Below, piece after piece: positions 25,429 through 39,019 of a stretch of DNA of 64,000 nt. The translations under genes were made by a program, and so were the position numbers. Source of the stretch: Nonomuraea rubra. Its GTDB lineage: Bacteria > Actinomycetota > Actinomycetes > Streptosporangiales > Streptosporangiaceae. The stretch lies in the NCBI RefSeq assembly GCF_014207985.1, contig NZ_JACHMI010000001.1, forward strand, positions 1,967,001-2,031,000, written 5' to 3'. Every line of letters starts with the position of its first letter. Positions within the stretch are counted from its first letter, which is position 1. The notes below the pieces were generated by a model that was not told the origin of the DNA, did not search any database, and saw only the letters and a program-made list of their open reading frames with translations.

Positions 25429-25784
25429 CCACTCCCGGCCGCTACGACTACTGCGGGCTCTACCTACGCGGCGCCGGCCAAGAGGCCGCGATCGAGCTGA
25501 CCGCCCATGCCACCGGCGCGACACGCGATGGCTGCCTGCTGCGCATCGACACCATCGAGATCGAGATCCGGCGCAACGACACCTTCACCCACGATGGGAC
25601 CGACTTCCCCACCTGGCCGATCAAGATGGAGATCGAAAGAGGGAACGCCCCCAGCCACCAGGTCATCGAGACGGTGTCCAAGATCCTCACCTGCGCCTGG
25701 CAGGCAGGCCATGACGCAGTCGCTGCCTGCGACTACGAAGACGAACTTCCCGACCACGGCGGATACCCCCGCTACCGAGACTGA
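25425..25784 (+). CDS. IS256 passenger protein, unknown
   Basis: A 119-residue hypothetical protein starting at the ATG inside the transposase stop (ATGA). Sequence features: YDYCGLYLRGAGQEAAIELT, RIDTIEIEIRRNDTFTHDG and a Trp/Cys-containing end. It looks like a small alpha/beta protein. It lies completely inside the terminal repeats and therefore moves with the element. Function unknown; a helper or regulator of transposition is possible. Confidence 0.6.
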   Translation: MTTPGRYDYCGLYLRGAGQEAAIELTAHATGATRDGCLLRIDTIEIEIRRNDTFTHDGTDFPTWPIKMEIERGNAPSHQVIETVSKILTCAWQAGHDAVAACDYEDELPDHGGYPRYRD

Positions 25785-25819
25785 CCACCCACCCGATCCA
25801 CAGAAATTGACAATTGCTC

Positions 25820-28800
25820 GTGGAACACCTCAGGTGGGAGCGCATGCTTCAGGCGCCAGACGAACCGGATGAGCCGCTCGCCCTCGTGGCTCACGTACTG
25901 CACAGGCCCTGCGTACGTGAATGGCGGAGCGCCGAGTCCTTCCCTCCCTCGCGGGCCCTCGCGCTTGGAACGCCTGACGTACAGGTGAACCGTAGAGTCA
26001 CCTGTCACGTAGCGCCGCGCGGTGGGGGTCGACGACCGCAGCATGCTCTGCGACTCCCACAGGAAGAGCTCTTCGCTAATCGCTCGATTGAGGTAGAGCG
26101 TGGTGGGAGAGTAACGGCCCTCAGACTTGTCAATCGTGGCGAAGAACAGGTCTGCCTGATGCGCTTGAACGTACCTGACGCCTTCCCTCTTGTGCACAGG
26201 CTTGTCGACACCGAAAGCAGCCAGTACCTCGTTCTTGCTGTGGCGGGCGTGCACATGCAGCGGCACCACAGCGTCCAGCGGTGGAGCCACGTGGCGCAGG
26301 CCCGAGCGCAGCACCCCCGCAAGCTCTCTCAGCTCTGCAGCACGAGCACCCGTGAGGCGGGCGAACCGGGCCGCCATCTCGGAGACCGGCCCGGTGCCGC
26401 CCCACAACATCACGTCCAGCATGGCCATCAGGCGTAGCTCGCGCGGGGATTCTGGAACTCTTCCGGCCAGCAGCTCGGTCAGGAAGGTGAGACGCTCGAC
26501 GTCGTCGATGTGCAACATCCGGCCGAAGGCCCGTCCGAGTGCTTTGTCACCCGGAGCGGCGCCGAAGCCTGCGGCGTGCCGCAGGGAGGCCCAGCCCTGA
26601 CGATCCCGGTACAGATCCTCCACGTCCAGCCCGGTCTCCCGTAGGAAGGTGGGCAGGTCGACGTCGCCGAGGTCGCGCAGCTCGTGTGCCAGATCCCGCC
26701 AGTTCAAGTTGAGCGCCTGCCGGACGTTTTCGAGAACGAGCCGGCGTACGTCGCGGTCCACGTCGATGACGCAGCCGGCGGGCAGTGTCGGGAAGCCGTG
26801 CTCGATCTCCCTGGCGATGCCGGTACGGCTGGCGCCGGTGAGCGCTCGGTAGCGGCGGTCGAAGCGGAACTGTTTGTACTGGTGGCCGACGAAGTCGAGC
26901 ACGGTCAGGCACGGCTTGTCGTCGGCGAGCCGCAGGCCGCGGCCGAACTGCTGCAGGAAGACGGTGGCGCTGTCGGTGGGCCGCAGGAACAGCACGGTGT
27001 CGATCTCCGGGACGTCGACGCCTTCGTTGAAGAGGTCGACGGTGAACACCGCGTTGATCTTCCGTTCCCGCAGGTCGCGCAGTGCCTGATCCCGTTCGTC
27101 ACGCGAGCTGTTCGTGGTGACGGCGACGGACGGCAGTCCGGCCCGGTGAAGCGGTCGGCCATGAAGCGGGCGTGGTCGATGCTCACGCAGAAGCCGAGGG
27201 CCCGCATCCGTCCCACATCGCCCACTTTGCGGTGCAGCGTCTCGAGAATCACGGCGGCGCGACGGTCGTTGCCGGTGTAGACGTTCGAGAGCGGCCGAGG
27301 TCATATCCCTGGCCTCTGCGCCAGCCGATCTGGCGCAGGTCGGTGCCGTCATGTACCCCGAAATACTGGAACGGGGCCAGTAGTCCCCGCTCCAGCGCCT
27401 CCCACAAGCGCAGCTCGGCGGCGATCCGGCCGTCGAACCAGTGCTTGACGTCCTGCCCGTCGGCGCGTTCCGGCGTCGCGGTCAAGCCCAGGAGCACCTT
27501 GGGCCGCACTCCGGTGAGCAGCTTGCGATAGGTGGCGGCCTCGGCGTGGTGGAACTCGTCCACGATCACCATGTCAGAGCGGTCCGGCTCGGGGAGCGGG
27601 TTGGTGTCCAAGCTCTGGATCGAGGCGAACACGTGCCGCCAATGCTCGGGGCGGGCGCCGTCCACGTACAACTCGCCGAACGTCTCGTCCCGCAGCACCT
27701 GCCGGAACGTCAGCAGGCTCTGTCGCAGAATCTCCTTGCGGTGGGCTACGAATAGCACCGACTCCGCCTGTCCCGCCATCCGCAGCCGGCGGTAGTCGAG
27801 CGCGGCGACCACGGCCTTGCCGGTGCCGGTGGCCATGACGACGAGGTTGCGCCACCTGTTGTGGATCTCCCGCTCGGCGGCGAGCTCGTCCAGGATCTCG
27901 CGCTGGTAGGAATACGGGCGTACGTCCACGTGCGCGAAGTCGAGCACCAGGCCGTTGCCGCCCGACCGCTCGGTGGACAGAGCGCGGTCGAGCCGCTCGG
28001 CGTCGTGCGCCGGGTCGTAGGGCTCGAACGACGGATCGCCCCAGTAGTCGTCGAAGGTGGCGGCGAATGTGTCGATCAGGTGCGGCTGCTCGGCCTGGGC
28101 GAGCCGGACGTTCCACTCCAGTCCGTGGCTGAGCGCGGTGCGCGACAGGTTGGACGAGCCCACGTAGCCGTGGACAACCCGTTATCCCGGCGGAACAGCC
28201 AGGTCTTCGCATGCAGCCTGGTCATCCGGGTGTCGTAGGAGACGCGGATCTCGACACCCATCGCCGCCAGCCGGTCCAGGGCCAGGCGGTCGGTGGCGCC
28301 GATGTAGGTGGTGGTCACCACCCTCAGCCGGCCGCCGCGCTGGAGGAACTCCTCGATCGCCTCGGCCAGCACCCGCACACCGTTCCACTTCACGAACGGG
28401 CACAGCAGGTCGACATGGTCGGCGGAGGCCAGCTCTCGCTTCAGCTCATGGCCGATCTCTGGCTGCCCGGCGCCCGTTGACCAGCAGCGCACTGCCGGTG
28501 AGGGGGACCGCCGGTCGGGGCGGAAAGCGCACCTGGCCACCGGCGTCCCGGCCCTTGGCAATCCAAAGCAGCTCTTCCGCGGCCCTCCACCATCTCCTCG
28601 GGGGAGGCGGCCTCGGGTACCAGGTCGCCAAGGAGATCGGCGACCCGATTGACGATCTCCACCTGCCGGGCCAGCCGCACCGCGTCGTTCTCACCCCGCA
28701 CCGAACGCAGAGCCCGCCGGGTGAGCGCGGCCAGATGCCGGACGAGGGTCTCGTGGGAGTCGGCGAGGTCCAGGGAACGCCGGTCGATCAGATCACGATC

Positions 28801-29991: not shown

Positions 29992-30012
29992 TTTTTGTCA
30001 TTTTGACAAAAA
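29992..30012. promoter_or_regulatory. Perfect palindrome before the NrtR-like gene
   Basis: TTTTTGTCA TTT TGACAAAAA: nine perfect inverted pairs around a 3-base spacer, 16 bases before the ATG of the Nudix/NrtR-like gene. NrtR-type regulators bind palindromes with GTCA...TGAC half sites, so autoregulation is likely. It is also AT-rich in a GC-rich genome, which makes a chance occurrence less likely. Confidence 0.7.
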
Positions 30013-30027: not shown

Positions 30028-30765
30028 ATGAGCGACGATCGATGGGAGCCGCCCGCCATCTTGCTCGCCGTTGACCTGGTGATCCTCACCCTGCGCGATT
30101 CCCGCCTCCACGTGCTGCTCGTCGAGCGCGGCATCGAGCCGTACAAGGGCGCCCAGGCGCTGCCGGGCGGCTTCCTGCAACACTCACAAGAAAGTCTCCT
30201 CGTCGCGGCTCATCGAGAACTGGCGGAGGAGACCGACCTGAGCGTCGGGACGCTCCGGCTGGAACAGCTCGGTGTCTACGACGACCCAGGGCGGGACCCT
30301 CGCGGCCGGGTGGTGAGCGTCGCCTTCCTGGCCATCGCCCCGAGGCTGCCCGAGCCGACCGCCGGCACCGATGCCGCCGACGCCACTTGGCAGCCCACCG
30401 ACCGGGTGCTCTCCGGTGAGCTGGACCTCGCGTTCGATCACCGGTGCATCGTCACCGACGGCGTCGAGCGTGCCCGCGCCAAGCTCGAACACTCCGCACT
30501 CGCCACGGCCTTCTGCGGGCCGACGTTCACGATCACCGATCTTCAGGACGTGTACGAGGCGGTGTGGGGGATGCCGCTCGATCCCCGGAACTTCTACCGG
30601 AAGATCAAGAAAACCGATGGCTTCATCCTCCCTGCCGGTTCGGCGCGCAAGGCCGCGACCGGGCGACCGGCCCGGCTGTTCCGGGCAGGCCCGCGCGAAG
30701 TCCTGTACCCCCCGATGATCCGCCCCGCCGAAAACTCGCCGAACGGAAAGGAGCCGGCGCAGTGA
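30028..30765 (+). CDS. NrtR-like Nudix-domain transcriptional regulator
   Basis: A 245-residue protein. Residues 10-140 are a Nudix fold (ILLAVDLVILTLRDSRLHVL, ALPGGFLQHSQESLLVAAHR, ELAEETDL) and residues 150-215 a winged helix (FTITDLQDVYEAVWG, RNFYRKIKKTDGFILPAG) as in NrtR regulators of NAD metabolism. The Nudix box is atypical: six instead of five residues separate the Gly and first Glu, and the usual Gly after EET is Asp, so it may bind rather than hydrolyse an ADP-ribose-like ligand. A palindromic operator lies just upstream. Its stop overlaps the next gene (GTGA). Confidence 0.8.
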   Translation: MSDDRWEPPAILLAVDLVILTLRDSRLHVLLVERGIEPYKGAQALPGGFLQHSQESLLVAAHRELAEETDLSVGTLRLEQLGVYDDPGRDPRGRVVSVAFLAIAPRLPEPTAGTDAADATWQPTDRVLSGELDLAFDHRCIVTDGVERARAKLEHSALATAFCGPTFTITDLQDVYEAVWGMPLDPRNFYRKIKKTDGFILPAGSARKAATGRPARLFRAGPREVLYPPMIRPAENSPNGKEPAQ

Positions 30766-31880
30766 GCCCTGTTGTGATCCTCACCGCACTCGACCTGGAA
30801 TACCAGGCGGTCCGCGAAAAGCTGGCCGGCCTGCGGCTGCACCGGCACTCCCAAGGCACCCTCTTCGAGGTGGGCCGGCTGGTGGATGGTCGGTGCCAGG
30901 TGGTCCTGGCGCACGTCGGCAAGGGCAATCTTTCCGCGGCGGTGCTGGCGGAACGCGCCATTGCCGAGTTCCGGCCGGCCGCGCTGCTCTTCGTGGGAGT
31001 GGCCGGCGCGCTGCACGCGCACATCGCGCTCGGCGACGTCGTGGTGGCCACGCACGTGTACGCGTTCCACGGCGGGACCAGCCAGGACGACGGTTTCAAG
31101 AGCCGTCCCCGAGTCTGGGAGACCTCGCACGTCGCCGACCAGATCGCCCAGCACCTGCACCGCACCGGCGCCTGGGCCGGGGACCTCGACCCTCGGCCGC
31201 AGGTGCATTTCGGGCCGATCGCCGCGGGGGAGGTGGTGCTGAACTCCCGGCTCTCCGAGCACGCCCACTGGATTCGCGAGCACTACAACGACGCACGTGC
31301 GATCGAGATGGAAGGCGCCGGAGTGGCACAGGCCGGCCACCTGAACCGGGCGCTGCCTGTGGTCGTCATCCGCGGTATCAGTGACCGGGCCGACGGCACC
31401 AAGGAAGCCACGGACCGCGAGCAGTGGCAGCCGCGCGCCGTGGCCAGCGCGGCCACGTTCGCCGCGGCTCTGGCCGAGGAGCTGTCCGCCGAAGGATCCA
31501 CGACAAGGAGCTCTGCCATGCCCGAGACGAACAGGAACATCGCCAAGGGGAACGCGCACGTGGGAGTGCAGGCCGGCATCGTGCACGGCGGCGTCCGGAT
31601 CACTCCTGAGACGTCCCGGCCGGAGGACCTGCCGGAGGCGCTGGTGGGGTTCCGCTCCCGGCTGTGGCAGGCATGGGCGGACGGGCACCTGGACGAGGCG
31701 ACGTACAAGGCGGCGGAGGCGGAGCTCAGCGCGGCCGACCAGGCTCTGGAAGGCGAGATGCCGGATAGGAGGAACGCGCTGACGCTGGCGCTGAAGAAGC
31801 TGCGCGGGCTTGTCGGTGATGTGGCCGCGCTGGCGGCAGAGCTCACCGCCATCATCGCCCTAGCCCAATCCCTGTCATGA
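30762..31880 (+). CDS. Nucleosidase (MTAN/PNP-like) domain protein with GVQAG motif
   Basis: A 372-residue protein starting with GTG at 30762 inside the preceding stop. Residues 1-240 are a phosphorylase/nucleosidase domain: ILTALDLEYQAV, LLFVGVAGALH, IEMEGAGVAQAG (E184) and GISDRAD with the catalytic-type Asp208, as in MTA/SAH nucleosidases. Such domains occur as effectors in actinobacterial conflict systems, where they would attack nucleosides or nucleotides. After residue 250 comes the motif HVGVQAGIVHGGVRI (266-280) and a helical C-terminal region. An in-frame ATG at 31518 with an excellent AAGGAG site could give a separate 120-residue C-terminal product. The stop overlaps the next gene. 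Confidence 0.75.
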   Translation: MSPVVILTALDLEYQAVREKLAGLRLHRHSQGTLFEVGRLVDGRCQVVLAHVGKGNLSAAVLAERAIAEFRPAALLFVGVAGALHAHIALGDVVVATHVYAFHGGTSQDDGFKSRPRVWETSHVADQIAQHLHRTGAWAGDLDPRPQVHFGPIAAGEVVLNSRLSEHAHWIREHYNDARAIEMEGAGVAQAGHLNRALPVVVIRGISDRADGTKEATDREQWQPRAVASAATFAAALAEELSAEGSTTRSSAMPETNRNIAKGNAHVGVQAGIVHGGVRITPETSRPEDLPEALVGFRSRLWQAWADGHLDEATYKAAEAELSAADQALEGEMPDRRNALTLALKKLRGLVGDVAALAAELTAIIALAQSLS

Positions 31881-33898
31881 CAGAGCCAGGGCACCGTGTC
31901 GAGAACGTGGCCACGGACTCCCACATCGGAGTGCAGGCGGGCACGGTGCACAACCTCAACGTCTACGAGAGGGATCCGCGAGACTCGCCCGAGACCACGT
32001 TTCGCAAGGGTGTCTCGTTTCTGAAGGGCCGCATGCCGGGGCCGGCCCGCCGGCTGATCAACGACGCCATGGTCGGCTACACCACCAACGAGGTCTACTT
32101 CTACTGGTTGCTCGCCATGGTGAGCCGCCGGACGCGGCACGAGCTCACCAAGGACGAGACCGGCCAGCTGCGAGACAGGCACGCCACCATGCAGCTGCGG
32201 GGCGAGGATCCATGGCGGGAGGGAGTGCGCATCATCGACCGCCTCCTGGAGTCGGCGGGCAAGGCGGAGGACGACATCCGCGTCGTGGTCAAGGACCTCG
32301 ACGCGCTCCGCGAACCGCAACGCAGCCTGATCCTGGAACACCTGGAGCTGTACCTCGACGGCCCCATCGAGGACCACCTGTGGCACCGGGCGCTGTCTCA
32401 GGCCAAGGCGGATCAGATGGCCGAGCGGCGCGAGGACCGGATCTGGAAGTTCTTCCACCCGTTACCGGCCAGGCCTCTGCTGCGGGAGCCTCAGCGACCT
32501 GATACACCGGCGACATGCTGGGCCCGAGCGGCCGTATCGACGGTCGTCCTGATCGCGGCGACAGCCAATCTGGGCTATCTGATCCTGCAGAGCGGCCGCG
32601 CGCTTCTGATGGCCGCCTACGTGCTGGGCCTCGCCGGCGCCTCGGTCGGCGTGCGAGACACCGCGCGCTGGCGCCACCGCGTCGTACGCCGCCGTGCCAA
32701 GGACAGGGAGTACCGGGTACGCAGAACAGAGAATGAGCGGGTAGGCGTCGGCCGCCGCACCAAGAAGGCCCCGAAACGCAAGACGAAGGTGCAGCGGGGC
32801 AATTTCGCGAAGAAGGCCGAGCACCGGATCGACCACTATTTCGCCAAGTACGTTCCTCCCGGCATGGACCGCGACCAGTGGGACGCCGAAACGGAAGGCA
32901 TACGCCGGAGCCTGCGCGACGAGCTCACGGAGGTCTACGGCGAGACCCGAGTCGGAGTCGAGAAGATCGCCTGGCTTATCCGGCACCGGGCAGGCAAGGC
33001 CGCCACGCGCCGCAGGAAAGGCACGCTGTGGAGCTACCGCCGGGAGCTTGCCACTCCCTTCGGGACGAAAGCGCGGGCGACACTCGGACTGCTCATCCTC
33101 GCAGGTGCAGGCGGCTGGGCCGCTGTCGGCATCGTGCCGATCGAGCCTCTGCCTGCGATCGGCACCATTCTCCTCCTACTGATCGCCGGGTGGTTCTGCG
33201 CCCGCACCTGGCTGCGCATCGTCCTGGAGCGTCGCCGGTACGCCGCCGACCGGGCTGAGAACCTCTCGGCGTACCAGGGTGATCTGGAGGCGCTGGCGAG
33301 GTGGCGAGCAAGGCTGGAGGACAAGCCTGATGACGAGGAAATGGCAGCCTGGCTGGACTGCGACCGCAAGGTGCTCCTGGAGGAGGCATTGCGGCATTAC
33401 AGGCTGACCATGAGCGGTGTCATCGCGCACGCCTTCATCGAGGCTCCCGCCCGGGGGAGCGAACGCGCACGGCTACGTGGAGGTCCGTGGCGCTACAAGA
33501 AGTACCAGCTCCTGGTCTTCCTCGTCACTGAGGAAGGGGTGCGCCAGTTCACCGTCACCCTCGACTTCTTGAAAGGCACCTTCCACGACCGGCAGCGGCT
33601 CAACTACCGCTTCGAAGCGGTCGCGTCCGTAAGCGTCAAGCAGTCGGACGACGGCGGGCGCGATTTCCAGCTCGCGCTCGTCAACGGCAATGAGATCAGT
33701 GTCGAGGTGAACTCGGGGGTGGAAGAACTACAGCAGGGAGAGCGCCCCGGAGCGGTGTCCGAAGTGTCGCTGGACGCCGCAGGACTGCCTCACACCCTTC
33801 ATGTCCTGGAAGCGATCGCCGCCGAAGGAAAGAAATGGGTCGATCAGCGGGAGCTACGCACAGGGAACCTCTCGGCCGCCTTGGACGACCCCGAATAG
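31877..33898 (+). CDS. Large membrane protein with GVQAG motif, putative conflict-system component
   Basis: A 673-residue protein overlapping the nucleosidase gene by four bases. It opens with HIGVQAGTVHNLNVY (residues 16-30), the same motif as in the previous protein. A helical region follows (TFRKGVSFLKGRMPGPARRL onward), then two hydrophobic helices near 217-237 and 243-262. A highly basic region comes next (about 265-310, RRTKKAPKRKTKVQRGNF), then two more helices near 401-420 and 430-448. The C-terminal soluble part is about 220 residues. No enzyme motif is recognised. Being membrane-bound and coupled to a nucleosidase, it could anchor or form the effector; that is inference. Confidence 0.6.
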   Translation: MTEPGHRVENVATDSHIGVQAGTVHNLNVYERDPRDSPETTFRKGVSFLKGRMPGPARRLINDAMVGYTTNEVYFYWLLAMVSRRTRHELTKDETGQLRDRHATMQLRGEDPWREGVRIIDRLLESAGKAEDDIRVVVKDLDALREPQRSLILEHLELYLDGPIEDHLWHRALSQAKADQMAERREDRIWKFFHPLPARPLLREPQRPDTPATCWARAAVSTVVLIAATANLGYLILQSGRALLMAAYVLGLAGASVGVRDTARWRHRVVRRRAKDREYRVRRTENERVGVGRRTKKAPKRKTKVQRGNFAKKAEHRIDHYFAKYVPPGMDRDQWDAETEGIRRSLRDELTEVYGETRVGVEKIAWLIRHRAGKAATRRRKGTLWSYRRELATPFGTKARATLGLLILAGAGGWAAVGIVPIEPLPAIGTILLLLIAGWFCARTWLRIVLERRRYAADRAENLSAYQGDLEALARWRARLEDKPDDEEMAAWLDCDRKVLLEEALRHYRLTMSGVIAHAFIEAPARGSERARLRGGPWRYKKYQLLVFLVTEEGVRQFTVTLDFLKGTFHDRQRLNYRFEAVASVSVKQSDDGGRDFQLALVNGNEISVEVNSGVEELQQGERPGAVSEVSLDAAGLPHTLHVLEAIAAEGKKWVDQRELRTGNLSAALDDPE

Positions 33899-34041
33899 GC
33901 GAGCTCAAGCACTCGTGCGTGCGGCTTCCTTCGACAGTGACCTGGTGCTCATAAGACCTGGCACTCCGCTGGTCTCGTGGCTACTCTGCAACAGAGTGTG
34001 GTGATCGGTTGCGCAGCGTCACTGGAGGAGCTGGAGGTCCA

Positions 34042-34842
34042 GTGGAACAGCGTGACGCACAAAGCCTTGCCGACATCCTGTCGGTTGCGCCATGGGTGGA
34101 GCTCGAAAAGTATGTCGATCACCTGAGGGATCGGGTCGATGTGGCCGTTCTGGCCTCACACGGGCGGCGTGAGCAGCTCCGTGCCGAGATATTGGCAGAA
34201 AATCAGGATTTAAGCGCCCAGATCCGCCGCCCGTCCCCGGAGAAGATGCAATGGGCCAAGCATCTTGCGCGCACCGGGATCGTCGCCGCCTCCGATGGGA
34301 CGCTTGCCGCCGTACCCCTCCTTAGCGGTACGAAGGTCCAGGTGGGCGTGGTGATCGTCACCAACACCGGCGAATCCGTCGGGCTCGTGACGAGGGTGTT
34401 CGAGCACGAGCTGACCAGCACCGGTGACACGGCCAGGGAGTTCTTCGACAATCTCCGCAAGGTGCACGGCACCTCCAACCTGGCCAGCCGCGCCTTCATG
34501 CTTCTCGACGAACGCAAGCTCCTGCTCGCACAAGAGGCCGGCTGGCGGATGATCCACGGGGAACTGGTTCCCTTCGAACTCCGTACGGGCGTGGGACCTC
34601 CGCGGGAGAACCTGCCGCCCGTTTTCGATCTCGTCCGCCACTACATCAAGGACCAGCGGTTCATCGCGGTCAGCGAAAGCCCCGAGGACCTGGACGTTCT
34701 CAACGCCGGCATCGTCCTGGAGCCGGGGGAGTTCATCGAGTTGCGGACGCTGGGCGAGGACCTCACCGGTCTTCTGTACGGCGATGAAGAGAGCGCTGAT
34801 TGGGCCAGCTCTCCCAGGAGGGCATCCCGTACACCGAGCTGA
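34042..34842 (+). CDS. Possible NurA-like nuclease-domain protein
   Basis: About 266 residues from the GTG at 34042, which has GGAGG upstream (34033-34037). A TTG at 34009 is an alternative. The central region (IVAASDGTLAAVPLL, then VQVGVVIVTNTGESVG, and later AFMLLDERKLLLAQEA) has the spacing of the DG and LLD motifs of NurA-type 5'-3' nucleases, but the match is weak and I call it tentative. The last 13 codons run into the mycoredoxin remnant, so the natural C-terminus may have been replaced. It lies in line with the KAP NTPase genes downstream. Confidence 0.45.
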   Translation: MEQRDAQSLADILSVAPWVELEKYVDHLRDRVDVAVLASHGRREQLRAEILAENQDLSAQIRRPSPEKMQWAKHLARTGIVAASDGTLAAVPLLSGTKVQVGVVIVTNTGESVGLVTRVFEHELTSTGDTAREFFDNLRKVHGTSNLASRAFMLLDERKLLLAQEAGWRMIHGELVPFELRTGVGPPRENLPPVFDLVRHYIKDQRFIAVSESPEDLDVLNAGIVLEPGEFIELRTLGEDLTGLLYGDEESADWASSPRRASRTPS

Positions 34843-34997
34843 ACGTGAACGAAACCCCCGGCGCCATCGAGCACATCAGCGAGCTGAACAGCGGCTCCTA
34901 GCTGATTCCCACCGTCGTCTTCCCCGACGGCTCGGCCCTGGTCAACCCGAGCGTGCAGGAGGTGCGGAGCAGGCTCGTCGACATCACGTTTGCATAA
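34803..34997 (+). pseudogene. Mycoredoxin (glutaredoxin-like) C-terminal remnant
   Basis: Reads LSQEGIPYTELNVNETPGAI, EHISELNSGS, stop, then LIPTVVFPDGSALVNPSVQE and VRSRL. This is the second half of a mycoredoxin/glutaredoxin-like protein (the VPTVxFPDGS cis-Pro segment). An in-frame TAG interrupts it, and the N-terminal half with the CxxC active site is missing. It lies between two genes of the candidate conflict operon, which suggests that the block was inserted into or beside a mycoredoxin gene. Confidence 0.65.
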
Positions 34998-35049
34998 CCC
35001 CCCTTACCCCCCACTCCACACGAGGGATGCTCGGAGTGAAGGGGGACAC

Positions 35050-36294
35050 ATGCCGGATATCGCGATGCTCTCTGACGCGCCGGTGAGCTGGCGCCGGGAT
35101 CTGCTCCAGTTCCGCCGATACGTCGATCCGCTGATGTCGATCATCACCAGCCAGGACACGCAGACCCCGTTCACCATCGGCGTGTACGGCGACTGGGGCA
35201 GCGGGAAGACGACGCTGCTGGAGATGGTCGACCAGCGATTGGCCGAGCGGCACGCCGAGGAGTTCGTCCGCGTGCACTTCAACCCCTGGGTGCACCGCCG
35301 CGAGCCCGAGATGCTGCTCCCCCTGCTGAACGCCCTGCACAACACGGTCTCCGCCGATCCCAAGCACCGCTTCACCGAGATGGTGAAGAAGCTCGGCGTC
35401 ATCACCATGAACCTGGCCGCCGACGAACTGCTGAAAAAGCTCAACCTGGGCGCCGTCAGCGTCGAGAAGATCGGCAAGCTGGCCCAGCAGTATGCCGAGA
35501 TGCGCGGCCAGATCGACAGCCAGACCGGCCGCCTGCGCGAGGCCCTGCAGGAGCAGGCCGACCACCTGGCCAAGGAGAACCGGAAGATCGTTTTCTTCGT
35601 GGACGACCTCGACAGATGTGGCCCCGACCAGATCATCGATCTGCTTGAGTCCATCAAGCTCTTCCTGGACCTGCGGAACGTCTTCGTCGTGATCGCTCTG
35701 TCCAAGGACGTGGTCGATCGCGGAGTGTCAGTGCGATACGAGGCGTTCAAGTTCCCCGCCACGGTTCACATCGGCGACGACTATCTGGACAAGATGATCC
35801 AGTTGCCGGTGCACCTTTACCCGCTGGGCCCCGCCGAGGTGGGCCGCTTCATCCGCGAGTCCGGCCCCGGCAAGCTCGCCCAGCAGCACGTCGCGATCCT
35901 GGAGCAGACGGTCACGCCCAACCCCCGCAAGATCAAGCGCGTACTGAACCTGCTCCGCCTCACCGAGGCGATCATCGACGCCACTCCCCGCCTGGCCGAC
36001 CTGCACACCGACCTGATCGCCCGCCTCGTCGTGCTCCGCGTACAGAGCCCGGACCTGTACGCGGAGGTGGCCCGCCTGCCCACGCTCCTGCACGCGATCG
36101 AACTGGTCCACCAGCACAAACTGAAATACCCACCGGACTGGCACGATCGATTCGGTGAACAGGCGGACCGTCTGCGGGAGCTGAGCGACGTCTACACCAC
36201 GAAGTACGACTTCCTCGCCCTGCTCTTCGCGAAGTCCGCCTTCGCCGCGTCCGCCGATGAGTTGTCCGTGTACCTGACGATGATCGGCGGCTGA
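35050..36294 (+). CDS. KAP-family P-loop NTPase
   Basis: A 414-residue KAP NTPase. Walker A is GDWGSGKT (47-54) and Walker B VFFVDDLDRC (181-190) with the DDLDR signature of the family. RVHFNPWVH (74-82) is also typical. Many KAP proteins have membrane helices inserted between the Walker motifs; none is obvious here, so it may be soluble. The ATG at 35050 is preceded by GGGGGA at a good distance; an upstream frame extension is rejected. It ends three bases before the next NTPase gene. KAP NTPases are common in prokaryotic conflict systems as switch or assembly modules. Confidence 0.85.
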   Translation: MPDIAMLSDAPVSWRRDLLQFRRYVDPLMSIITSQDTQTPFTIGVYGDWGSGKTTLLEMVDQRLAERHAEEFVRVHFNPWVHRREPEMLLPLLNALHNTVSADPKHRFTEMVKKLGVITMNLAADELLKKLNLGAVSVEKIGKLAQQYAEMRGQIDSQTGRLREALQEQADHLAKENRKIVFFVDDLDRCGPDQIIDLLESIKLFLDLRNVFVVIALSKDVVDRGVSVRYEAFKFPATVHIGDDYLDKMIQLPVHLYPLGPAEVGRFIRESGPGKLAQQHVAILEQTVTPNPRKIKRVLNLLRLTEAIIDATPRLADLHTDLIARLVVLRVQSPDLYAEVARLPTLLHAIELVHQHKLKYPPDWHDRFGEQADRLRELSDVYTTKYDFLALLFAKSAFAASADELSVYLTMIGG

Positions 36295-36297
36295 GAC

Positions 36298-37269
36298 GTG
36301 GAAGTGAGCGACGTCCGCTACGAGCTGTACGGCCTGATGGCGGGTAACCCCTACACCACGCGCCCGCTGAACTCCCTGGAGCAGGAGCTCGATCGCAGCC
36401 TCCTCCTGGAGCTGGAGGGATTCGTCCGCCTGCCGAAGCTGCAGGAAGCCATAGAAGCGGCCGTCACCCGCAGGGGACCCGCACTTTTCCTCATCACCGG
36501 CGTCGGCATGAGCGGCAGGACCTCGCTGGCCAACCACTTGCTGTACCTCTACCACCAGGCACATGGGCCTCAGCACCGCCTCGCGACTCATCGCATGGAC
36601 GGCTACGACATGACCCACGACGCCTACGCGCAGGTGCGCTCCACGCTGCTGTCGCTGCGCAACAAGATGGGCCTAATGACCATCGAGATGCCCCCGGGCC
36701 TGCGAGGCCGCTTTTCAGAGCTGAGCCGGAGAGGCTCCGTCGACCCCATGGACGAGTACGACCTGCAGGAGATCGCGGAATTCCTCGCGGCTACGTTTGC
36801 CGCCAGTGACGCCGCGTTCGGCGTGGTCTACGAGGGTGTCGCGACCAAGGACCTCATCACCCTGAGCACCAGGGTGTTCGAGAACACTCCCGCCGTCGTG
36901 GTCTTCACCGTGGACGCCTACCAGCACGCCAATGCCGCCCAGCTCACCGAGGCGGACCGGAGCGACTTCGCCAGGCGCGGCACCATCATCGATCTGCCGC
37001 TCCTGACCACCCGTCAGATCGCCTGCCTGGCCGAACAGCGCTGGACTGGCACGCCACCCGTCCCGTTCGACCCGGATGACCTGCAGGCGGTTTTCGACAG
37101 CAGGCGCTTCACCATCGGGCAGGCTCTGCGCCACCTCGAAGTTTTGCTCGACCTCCGGCTCGTGGAGTACGAAGGCGAGGACCTCTGGCCGACTGACGAT
37201 CTGCGCATGTCGAGTCGCTGGCTACGGATCAAGATGTGGCAGGGCGAGCGGTGGAGCAGATTACGATGA
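36298..37269 (+). CDS. P-loop NTPase with Arg in place of Walker A Lys
   Basis: A 323-residue protein. The Walker A region is GVGMSGRT (68-75), where the invariant Lys is Arg74. A Walker-B-like strand VVVFTVDAY (200-208) keeps the Asp but lacks the following Glu. The overall order (strand, P-loop, helix, Walker B, then a winged-helix-like C-terminus FTIGQALRHLEVLLDLRLVE) resembles AAA/STAND ATPases. It may bind nucleotide without efficient hydrolysis and act as a regulatory partner of the neighbouring NTPases. The start is GTG at 36298; another GTG lies at 36304. Its stop overlaps the next ATG (ATGA). Confidence 0.65.
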   Translation: MEVSDVRYELYGLMAGNPYTTRPLNSLEQELDRSLLLELEGFVRLPKLQEAIEAAVTRRGPALFLITGVGMSGRTSLANHLLYLYHQAHGPQHRLATHRMDGYDMTHDAYAQVRSTLLSLRNKMGLMTIEMPPGLRGRFSELSRRGSVDPMDEYDLQEIAEFLAATFAASDAAFGVVYEGVATKDLITLSTRVFENTPAVVVFTVDAYQHANAAQLTEADRSDFARRGTIIDLPLLTTRQIACLAEQRWTGTPPVPFDPDDLQAVFDSRRFTIGQALRHLEVLLDLRLVEYEGEDLWPTDDLRMSSRWLRIKMWQGERWSRLR

Positions 37270-38810
37270 CCTCCATCCCCGCCCGTAATCCCTTTCCCGC
37301 GCGCGGCACGTGCGAGCTGGGAGAGAGCTTCCTGCCCCATGCGCGGCGCCAGTGGTCCCGCTACCAACCCACCGCCCGGCTTTCCGGCGTCCAGGGAGCA
37401 CTCAGGCTGGCCGACGACTACATCCGCGACTTTGGCCGCGACGGCGCACTGGGCTGCTTGTATGGCGCGCACGGCGCGGGCAAGACGCACGCCGCCTGCC
37501 GGATGATGGCGAGCATCGACGCCGTGGACCGGCGGGCGGTCCAGTTCTACCTGAGGTTCGACAACGACGACTTCGTGACCGCCTACCGCCGCCTGGCCTC
37601 GTCGCTGACCCAGGACGCCCTGACCGACTTGTGCCTGCGCTACCTGGGCGTGCTCGCCGTCGAGTGGGCCGAGCAGCACGGCAGTGCCGCTCAACTGGAA
37701 GAGGTGCACGCGGCGATTCGCAACGAGCCCTCGATGGTGCTCGAGCTGTTCGACGCGGGCGACGCCGACTACAACGCAGTGCTGGAAGCGCAGGCCAGAG
37801 AGATCAGCATTGCGGTGGGGGACGGCGCCCAGTTCCAGCGCGCACTGTCGTTCCTGTTACGACCCGAGTTCTCCCATGCGGCCTACGACTGGCTGTGCGG
37901 CCGGGCGATCAGTCCCGGGAACGCCCTCGCGATGGGCGTCGACCCGCAGCTCGACGACCCCCAGCGCTGCCGGTACGCCCTCCAGCTCCTAGCCGCCCTG
38001 ACGACCAGGGGCGGCGCTCCGTTCGTGCTCGTGCTCGACCAGTGCGAGAAGTTCCTCCTGCATGACGGGACCCTGCTTCCCCGCAACAGCACCCTGCTGC
38101 AGAACCTGGCCGAGACGATCCCGCTGGCCGGCGGGCTGCTGCTCCTGGTGTGCAATCTGGCCGGCTGGGACCTCATGCCGCCCGACCTGCGCCAGCGCCT
38201 TGCCTCCGCGGCCCATCGGCTGCCACTGCTCACGCCGCACGAGGCCGAACTCCTGCTCACCGCCTACACCGGGGCGGCGCGCGGGCTCTTCACCGACGAC
38301 GCCGTACGCGAACTGCTCCGACAGAGTGGCGGCAACGTCCGGCGCTTCCTCCAGCTCAGCTGGCTGGGCTACGAGCGAGGGTTTTCCCGCGCCCCCATCG
38401 GGGTGGAGACGATCGCCCGCTCCGTGCCGGGCAGCGCCCGTTGTCCGGAACTGACCGAGCTGGCCATGCTGCTGGAGGCCCGGCTGCTGGCGGCCGGTCT
38501 CGTTGTGGAACGCTCGGGGAACGGGGAGGAGTTCGTGTCGTTCGGCCTACCGGACAGCCGCGACCCGCAAGTGCTCATCACTTTGAGCAAGGCTCTCTAC
38601 GCCGACGACCACCGGTTCGCCGAGGCCGGCCGCAAGGACGGCCGCGCGGCTTTCACCTCAGTCCTGATCAGCGGGTACGCCAGCCCGCCCGTATTGACCG
38701 GCCTCAGCCGACTCGCGCACGTGGTGCTGGTGGCCGACGGCTCCCCCGAGTTCTCCCGGCGACTCGACACGCTGGTGGAGCAGGTGGCCGCCGCGCTCGG
38801 CCGGCACTGA
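37266..38810 (+). CDS. AAA/STAND-like P-loop NTPase
   Basis: A 514-residue protein translationally coupled to the preceding NTPase (ATGA overlap at 37266). Walker A is GAHGAGKT (67-74) and Walker B FVLVLDQCEK (253-262). A long helical insert separates them. The arginine-rich segment DLRQRLASAAHRLPLLTPHE and the winged-helix-like QSGGNVRRFLQLSWLGYERG follow, as in ORC/STAND-type ATPases. The C-terminal 110 residues (VLITLSKALYADDHRFAEAG) form an alpha/beta region that could be an output domain but is not recognised. It is the last gene of the block; a pseudogene of an integrase lies downstream. Confidence 0.7.
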   Translation: MTSIPARNPFPARGTCELGESFLPHARRQWSRYQPTARLSGVQGALRLADDYIRDFGRDGALGCLYGAHGAGKTHAACRMMASIDAVDRRAVQFYLRFDNDDFVTAYRRLASSLTQDALTDLCLRYLGVLAVEWAEQHGSAAQLEEVHAAIRNEPSMVLELFDAGDADYNAVLEAQAREISIAVGDGAQFQRALSFLLRPEFSHAAYDWLCGRAISPGNALAMGVDPQLDDPQRCRYALQLLAALTTRGGAPFVLVLDQCEKFLLHDGTLLPRNSTLLQNLAETIPLAGGLLLLVCNLAGWDLMPPDLRQRLASAAHRLPLLTPHEAELLLTAYTGAARGLFTDDAVRELLRQSGGNVRRFLQLSWLGYERGFSRAPIGVETIARSVPGSARCPELTELAMLLEARLLAAGLVVERSGNGEEFVSFGLPDSRDPQVLITLSKALYADDHRFAEAGRKDGRAAFTSVLISGYASPPVLTGLSRLAHVVLVADGSPEFSRRLDTLVEQVAAALGRH

Positions 38811-39019
38811 AGGCTCAGCGCATCCGCAGGGCCAGGTTGGCTGGCGCGCTGGTAGCGGCCGGGGTTGAAGTCGATGAGCCGGTCGGCACCGCGCGAGCTC
38901 GCCCGCGCGGTGCCGGAACTCGGGAGGGTGAGGTGCGGACATGGAGGTCATCCATCCCTGATGATCAAGGATGACCTCAGGTCAAGTGTCCGGCGAACGG
39001 GGGAAGCTCAACCAAGATC

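Follow-up and report, generated by a model that had tools for sequence, protein, structure and literature searches.

A conserved operon for an NrtR-type regulator, a nucleosidase and a membrane protein in Nonomuraea rubra: a candidate NLR-independent signalling system with a shared RHIM-like motif

Introduction

In the bacterial amyloid signalling sequence (BASS) pairs of NOD-like receptors (NLRs), the receptor carries its tag at the N-terminus and the effector carries it towards the C-terminus. According to the accessible part of PMC7889193, from which this description is taken, bacterial amyloid signalling has so far been sought and found beside NLRs, and BASS3 and the RIP homotypic interaction motif (RHIM) can cross-seed. 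Fungal nucleosidase-type (PNP_UDP) effectors bear C-terminal amyloid motifs (PUASM or others), and a PP/RHIM motif has been described as NxGxQxGxN (both from the accessible part of PMC9815663). In the bDLD3/TRADD-N PNPase systems, a Death-like or TRADD-N domain is fused to a PNP domain (PMC8195603). For mycobacterial NrtR, the accessible text of PMC6800001 gives the palindrome GTTTTCGA-N7-TCGAAAAC and release by ADP-ribose. Here, we describe three adjacent genes of Nonomuraea rubra, called A, B and C (30028-33898 of a 64,000-nucleotide stretch of DNA, the window), which encode an NrtR-type regulator, a nucleosidase and a membrane protein and which recall several of these systems.

The original prediction for this region had proposed a single NTP-dependent conflict system of seven genes (A to G). 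Its observation was confirmed: all seven + strand frames between 30028 and 38810 are present at the positions given, and the junctions have the spacing described, with overlaps of 4 nucleotides (nt) between A and B (30762-30765), B and C (31877-31880) and F and G, and with 3 nt between E and F. Its interpretation is partly supported, but not the reading as one seven-gene system. What stood is the nucleosidase block, a conserved candidate conflict module whose combination of genes is unnamed. A-B-C is a real two-tag system, previously unlabelled in the sources searched, and no description of the B-C pair was found in the literature searched, which comprised open-licence PMC papers only, so that a prior description is possible. 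We consider it fairly probable that A-B-C is an alarm-and-execution operon of mycelial actinomycetes, a prion-like relay which is anchored in the membrane, acts independently of NLRs and gathers nucleotide-destroying effectors into clusters.

Results

Genes C and G were searched against 200 genomes of the family, and 32 C loci (first set) and 8 G loci were fetched. C matches were found in 53 of the 200 genomes and G matches in 26; those relatives that carry names are Nonomuraea species. The order A-B-C is kept in 31 of the 32 first-set loci, and the remaining locus (L072) consists of a 5'-truncated C alone. In all 31 relatives measured, the overlap of B with C is exactly 4 nt, which is beyond chance, and the spacing between A and B is variable. 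Judged by these sequence comparisons, A-B-C (30028-33898) is a conserved operon, and it contains no NLR gene.

Gene A (30028..30765, + strand, 245 amino acids (aa)) encodes an NrtR-type regulator. Pfam recognised both NrtR parts, the NUDIX domain (PF00293, 1.4e-14) and the winged helix NrtR_WHD (PF21906, 6.5e-15), and the protein scored below the equivalog cut-off of the NCBIfam model for ADPR-responsive NtrR (111.8 bits vs. 400). A putative palindromic operator, TTTTTGTCATTTTGACAAAAA (29992..30012, no strand assigned), lies 15 nt before A. Its core TGTCAnnnTGACA was detected at a nearly fixed distance before A in the 32 upstream regions compared (24 exact matches, 7 with one mismatch and 1 with two); among 124 control windows inside A, the core was exact in none and carried one mismatch in 2. 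For the 21-mer palindrome, a search of the 12.9 Mb genome that allowed up to 3 mismatches found no second site.

The two downstream proteins share a motif of the form NxAxxxAxVGVQAGxVxG, which is common to the disordered linker of B and the disordered N-terminus of C. In gene B (30762..31880, + strand, 372 aa), which encodes a nucleosidase followed by this linker and a predicted four-helix bundle, the RHIM-like motif is NIAKGNAHVGVQAGIVHGGVRI (31536..31601, + strand). It was defined by column conservation: in 29 sequences, N259, V267, G268, Q270, A271, G272 and G276 are 97-100% conserved, and the linker columns just before the motif mostly reach 21-52%. In gene C (31877..33898, + strand, 673 aa), the RHIM-like motif is NVATDSHIGVQAGTVHNLNVY (31904..31966, + strand), which was defined by alignment of the N-termini and by its concerted change with the partner. 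The core mostly reads V-Q-A-G, with conserved Q and G and an Ala at the third position. An RHIM core has the form (I/V)-Q-(I/V/L/C)-G, and the B/C motif loosely resembles RHIM-type amyloid signalling motifs.

For a pairing test, we assembled 74 loci with an upstream partner of C, the window included. Left out were L072, L146, L147, L157, L158, L203 and L209 (truncated, contig edge or no upstream partner), L131 (gene not called) and L138, L139 and L148 (no C found). The last 150 residues of the partner were locally aligned with the N-termini of C in 34 representatives with less than 55% C identity. Here, we found that own pairs scored 59.3 and permuted pairs 42.4 ± 1.72 (z 9.8; 0 of 20000 permutations as good, with kinship ignored). 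The own C was top-ranked for 8 of the 34 partners, and its mean rank was 5.7 vs. 16.5 by chance. When nucleosidase pairs were taken alone (n = 28), the scores were 57.8 vs. 46.0 (z 6.5, 0/20000); for the pairs with TIR or BTAD partners (n = 6), they were 66.3 vs. 38.2 (25/20000). Control segments of C gave z-values of -1.2 (residues 80-140) and 0.6 (near the C end). In 67 of the 74 loci, the own pair scored higher than each of 200 shuffled versions of the partner tail. Independent drift since a common origin would not favour own pairs, so that selection or gene conversion probably keeps the two motifs matched.

The partner of C is exchangeable. By BLAST, the 74 partners comprise 63 nucleosidases, 4 TIR proteins (L144, L145, L199, L200), 3 BTAD proteins and 4 unclassified proteins (L140, L191, L193, L201). 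L201 is a split BTAD-type locus, as judged by its neighbour, and is counted with L142, L143 and L202 as the fourth locus of this type; L191 has a longer frame upstream. Pfam confirmed the TIR domain in L144 and L145 and the BTAD domain in L142. All four TIR proteins end in a motif like that of their own C and overlap C by 4 nt. In L144, the tags are IGVQGTVMGNV (TIR) and IGVQGTVIGDV (C), and in L199 neither partner retains the Q core (NTAGRDF...IVADN and NTAGRDF...IVAEN). One protein (P0119) is a natural fusion with TIR, motif and C in a single chain. These alignments indicate that C is the constant part and that the effector, nucleosidase or TIR, is the exchangeable one.

The flanks of these loci differ. 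The four TIR-type loci have an XRE-type regulator upstream, and C is followed by a gene for a small zinc-ribbon protein that resembles single-membrane-helix proteins (L144 10989-11669, L145 7633-8385, L199 11214-11870, L200 11187-11951), possibly a fourth component of the TIR form. In L142, L201 and L202 (BTAD/SARP-type), an XRE-family regulator and a small DUF397-like gene lie upstream of C, and in loci of this type the tag is carried by a transcription-factor-like protein, not by an enzyme. The C homologue of L146 (8053-10707) has no same-strand upstream partner, a case against strict pairing, and L147 (9201-10161, the same locus as L109) is a decayed operon copy with adjoining pieces of B and of the 5' part of C.

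Matching tags would also be expected if the motif were a docking device, not an amyloid, and if strand exchange between beta-strands or a small beta-roll held the enzyme in a stable membrane-bound complex of defined stoichiometry. The pairing evidence fits any homotypic contact. The 4-nt overlaps suggest a fixed stoichiometry, and pairing in L199 persists without a VQxG core, so that the shared interface may not be amyloid. The likeness to BASS3 peptides is weak as well: two published BASS3-type peptides aligned barely better than shuffles (49/500 and 21/500 shuffles as good). However, AlphaFold2 predicts disorder for both motif regions, the short glycine-rich VQxG pattern is like the PP/RHIM description (accessible part of PMC9815663), and C-terminal exchange among unrelated enzymes is typical of known amyloid signalosomes. 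On balance, we regard docking as rather unlikely.

Further observations weigh against the prion-like relay, and we list them here together. Besides being short, the motif has only a loose likeness to RHIM, and where the nucleosidase bears a bundle it lies inside the protein; classical effectors carry theirs at the C-terminus. As relatives, the genomes compared are not independent samples, which the statistics of the pairing test leave out of account, and 7 of the 74 own pairs did not beat their shuffles. The control with the first 120 residues of the partner against the C N-terminus was not flat (26.4 vs. 23.9, z 3.8); z was 2.8 without L201 (a 130-aa partner) and 0.9 when both segments were shortened, and the size of this effect is about one seventh of the motif effect. 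None of the defence libraries names C, and PADLOC assigned B to generic nucleosidase-effector models only.

The nucleosidase domain of B was identified by Pfam (PF01048, PNP_UDP_1, 7.2e-35), and the protein has an MTA/SAH nucleosidase fold. The catalytic acidic residues E13, E182, E184 and D208 are present in all 29 aligned B sequences, and the score lies below the NCBIfam equivalog cut-off for MTA/SAH nucleosidase (107.2 bits vs. 169). In the AlphaFold2 model of B (m456ffa05ca28), residues 248-286 are disordered and residues 290-370 form four helices, the C-terminal bundle (31629..31871, + strand). In the genome, one other B homologue was found, a distant one (31% identity), and no second motif-bundle gene was found (next best E 0.1) by a search that is blind to a short tag on an NLR.

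Inside B, a Shine-Dalgarno sequence AAGGAG (31505..31510, + strand, duplex energy -8.3) and a conserved ATG predict a free motif-plus-bundle protein of 120 aa, which we call B-S (31518..31880, + strand). Of the 32 first-set B genes, 31 have an internal ATG at a distance of 14, 16 or 20 codons upstream of the motif; the exception (L067) has no bundle, and its ATG is located at 24 codons. The anti-Shine-Dalgarno energy at the internal ATG averaged -8.7 (-6 or lower in 28 of 32 first-set genes), and that at B's own start averaged -8.9 (97% at -6 or lower). For other ATGs, the mean was -3.3 (20% of 83 at -6 or lower), and for other linker codons it was -4.1 (23% of 1248). From a second set of 34 listed genes, 32 were evaluated, since L131 and L154 had no automatic motif call. 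Here, the ATG was present in 26 of 27 B genes with a full tail (bundle), L130 being the one without, and in none of the 5 B genes with a missing or shortened tail. L193 encodes the motif-bundle piece in a 120-aa frame of its own, which lies between B and C; its tag, VGAQIGKVEGNVTV, resembles the tag of C from the same locus, VETQIGNVHGNVTI. At another locus (L153, 5298-7085), A and B form one fused NrtR-nucleosidase frame of 595 aa, in which no internal ATG precedes the motif.

For C, an AlphaFold2 model (me18f9c66f6ac) and hydropathy suggest the order motif, TPR-like domain, two pairs of membrane helices and PH-like domain. Residues 1-31 are disordered in the model. The TPR-like domain (31979..32356) covers residues ~35-160 and the PH-like beta domain (33419..33709) residues 515-611. 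The first membrane helix pair (32510..32713, residues 212-279) and the second (33059..33313, residues 395-479) were placed by AlphaFold2 helices and hydropathy peaks; all four features lie on the + strand. Structure matches of the model were weak, and Pfam gave no family above threshold, no NTPase match and no transporter match. A test of C for the fold of bestrophin-type channels gave no clear outcome. Among the C homologues, P0125 and P0138 have an extra C-terminal domain of ~100 residues without Pfam match, and in P0145 an alpha/beta hydrolase follows C in the same chain. The record of a further homologue (P0044) is labelled Mycobacterium tuberculosis and is likely mislabelled or contaminated.

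Beyond the family, the C profile matched in 83 of 249 genomes of the order, 18 of 296 of the class and 2 of 296 of the phylum sample. Among the class matches, 11 lie outside the family, two of them fragments, and the trio A-B-C surrounded all 9 fetched non-fragment matches of this group, with extra B-C sequence in some. The operon is patchy within the genus. Streptomyces sp. M54 carries it on a mobilizable plasmid, where the three genes are annotated as NUDIX, MTA-SAH nucleosidase and hypothetical protein; the tags on this plasmid agree, with STVGI in both partners.

This distribution bears on a metabolic explanation, in which NrtR would sense NAD status, B would recycle a nucleoside by-product and C would be a transporter or membrane anchor. 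NrtRs are known regulators of NAD metabolism (accessible part of PMC6800001), B keeps the residues of MTA/SAH nucleosidases, and the only other homologue found in the genome is the distant one. However, TIR domains replace the enzyme in related loci, the genes are patchy within the genus and present on a plasmid, the genome has no second copy of the operator, and C lacks a Pfam transporter match. We therefore consider a metabolic operon improbable.

The remaining four genes, D to G, do not belong to the operon. Within 20 kb of the 32 first-set C loci, none of the genes D, E, F and G was found. Strong G matches were obtained in 6 of the 26 genomes, including the window's own (best E-values 0 to 1.8e-75; the next was 1.8e-23). 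In the 5 strong G loci fetched (L080-L084), E-F-G occurred together and none of the genes A-D was present; the 3 weak G loci had neither E nor F. Three genomes (G077, G169, G172) carry both blocks but at distant places. Homologues of the seven genes did not co-occur as a set, whereas those of A-B-C did.

In four of the five strong loci (L080-L083), genes for a radical SAM protein, an HExxH protein and a TPR protein come after E-F-G, and in L081 these exceed the curated cut-offs for FxsB, HExxH hydroxylase and FxSxx_TPR. When the window was searched by tblastn, no FxsB radical SAM, HExxH hydroxylase or FxSxx TPR gene was found. Since these genes are missing here and adjacent in 4 of 5 relatives, we read E-F-G as a fragment of an Fxs locus. 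An FxsB gene (radical SAM) above the curated cut-off is located elsewhere in the genome (G000:C1:662044-663126).

Gene E (35050..36294, + strand) is the KAP NTPase of this piece (PF07693, 2.4e-44; PADLOC reported similarity to KAP proteins of the QatA/PifA/PDC-S20 type). Gene F (36298..37269, + strand), assigned to the piece by the E-F-G order, encodes a small P-loop protein, for which all Pfam P-loop matches were sub-threshold. Gene G (37266..38810, + strand) gave an AAA_16 match just above the cut-off and retains 514 N-terminal residues of a protein that is 889-928 aa long in relatives (1339 in L084); similarity ends at 38813. Of the domain labels originally proposed, those of A, B and E were confirmed by Pfam, that of G was marginal, and D gave no match at all in the libraries used, which leaves its label 'NurA-like' unsupported.

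Gene D (34042..34842, + strand) is a remnant, the 5' part of a gene with an intact length of ~400 aa in relatives (L106, L101), and it lies outside the conserved set of the operon. Its DNA similarity stops at 34787 (vs. L106) or 34791 (vs. L107). The junction region (34792..34976, + strand) contains a genuine mycoredoxin remnant, as had been noted before: residues 18-75 of a 78-aa mycoredoxin, that of L083, match 34803-34976 (tblastn, E 1.9e-22). In L083, the mycoredoxin gene directly precedes E. The end of D similarity, the start of the mycoredoxin piece and the L083 order indicate that a mycoredoxin-E-F-G fragment was fused to the 5' part of D, and as both D and G retain only the 5' part of a longer gene, the gene series crosses a recombination junction. 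By this sequence evidence, genes E-G come from an FxSxx-COOH peptide-maturase locus, and the cut-off fragment meets the truncated D at 34791-34803.

D was considered as an operon member and rejected: among relatives, it follows C only in L106 and L107, which are close ones, it matches in 4 of the 200 family genomes including the window's own, and one genome (G003) has D alone, without a confident C. The D homologue of L107 (10079-11151) is broken into two frames, and D seems to decay in more than one Nonomuraea genome. On the other side of the operon (25772-28163, - strand), a helicase-type gene is split into overlapping frames (25772-27352 and 27249-28163), which suggests a frameshifted, decaying gene.

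These data decide on the seven-gene interpretation, in which the KAP and P-loop proteins of one NTP-driven system would switch the nucleosidase. The genes lie on the same strand with tight spacing inside each block, but 31 of the 32 first-set loci have A-B-C and lack D-G, and all 5 strong relatives have E-F-G and lack A-D, so that the blocks were together in 0/32 and 0/5 loci examined. D and G are truncated, a mycoredoxin piece marks the joint, and E-F-G goes with FxsB-type genes. Because A-B-C and E-F-G occur without each other, the nucleosidase is not switched by the products of the KAP gene and the two P-loop genes, and a seven-gene system is extremely improbable. The original prediction had itself raised the doubt that two neighbouring systems might be involved, and this doubt was borne out.

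Discussion

How might the prion-like relay work? A would bind the palindrome and hold operon expression low, a repression that ADP-ribose released by NAD breakdown would relieve if A behaves like known NrtRs. C would serve as membrane-anchored receptor or scaffold with the RHIM-like motif on its floppy N-terminus, and B would be an idle cytosolic nucleosidase whose floppy linker bears this motif as well. A trigger would cluster C, and the C motifs would stack into a cross-beta seed that templates the motif of B. B would then be concentrated at the membrane, where crowding may turn on nucleoside or nucleotide hydrolysis, with growth stop or cell death as the outcome. B-S, which has motif and bundle without the enzyme, would co-assemble and tune the threshold; it could buffer or build the seed. 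We assign C as receptor and B or TIR as effector because in NLR amyloid pairs the receptor tag is N-terminal and the effector tag lies towards the C-terminus (accessible part of PMC7889193). The pairing of the tags and their coupling can be read from the sequences themselves; amyloid-type stacking, C as the sensing side, the substrate, the role of B-S and cell death or phage defence are what we infer. The more complete picture is an NLR-free prion-like bacterial immune signalosome, in which a co-evolving RHIM-like tag on a TPR/4-TM/PH receptor (TM, transmembrane helix) nucleates interchangeable nucleotide-destroying effectors (nucleosidase, TIR), together with an internally translated tag-plus-bundle regulator and a repressor that reads NAD status. 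We hold this picture to be possible, with a slight lean towards doubt.

Compared with NLR-based amyloid signalling, the receptor of this operon would be built differently and would take exchangeable effectors, and the product of the predicted internal start would be a regulator already at hand. Whether the tags change in step can be tested without a wet lab. If the tag polymerises, prion-like bacterial signalling would be broader than NLR immunity, and the same tags could be used to find further systems; the question raised in the accessible part of PMC7889193, whether signalling amyloids act in NLR-independent pathways, would then be answered. The corrected boundary keeps a recombination scar from being recorded as a new seven-gene system.

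Each of the known systems resembles a part of this locus. The E-F-G relatives adjoin FxsB, HExxH hydroxylase and FxSxx TPR genes as in FxSxx-COOH (Fxs) loci (accessible part of PMC7159879), but those genes are missing from the window and G is truncated. A is like the NrtRs of NAD biosynthesis (accessible part of PMC6800001) in having Nudix and winged helix domains and a palindromic site before its own gene; it differs from mycobacterial NrtR in its palindrome, in the effector operon as target and in the single site in the genome. Like the PNP-domain ATP-nucleosidase immune effectors (Detocs and relatives; see also the accessible part of PMC12881547), B is a PNP-superfamily protein predicted to be an effector that destroys a nucleotide, but none of their sensor genes is present in the A-B-C operon. 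Fungal PNP_UDP effectors, as presented in the accessible part of PMC9815663, likewise combine a nucleosidase-superfamily enzyme with a short motif matched by the N-terminus of a neighbour; there, the partner is an NLR and the motif sequences are others, whereas the present system is bacterial and membrane-bound. RHIM signalling of the necrosome type also has a VQxG-like core in a disordered stretch between domains, but here there is no kinase, and the third core position is mostly Ala. The BASS pairs associated with NLRs, as far as the accessible parts of PMC7889193 and PMC8086366 describe them, have in common with A-B-C the adjacent or overlapping genes that share a short motif, N-terminal on one protein and towards the C-terminus on the effector, the presence of TIR among the effectors and the mycelial actinobacterial hosts. 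Unlike them, the operon has no NLR; its constant partner is a TPR-like/4-TM/PH-like membrane protein without Pfam NTPase match, its enzyme effector has a predicted internal-start product, it is under putative NrtR control, and its motif is not clearly BASS3.

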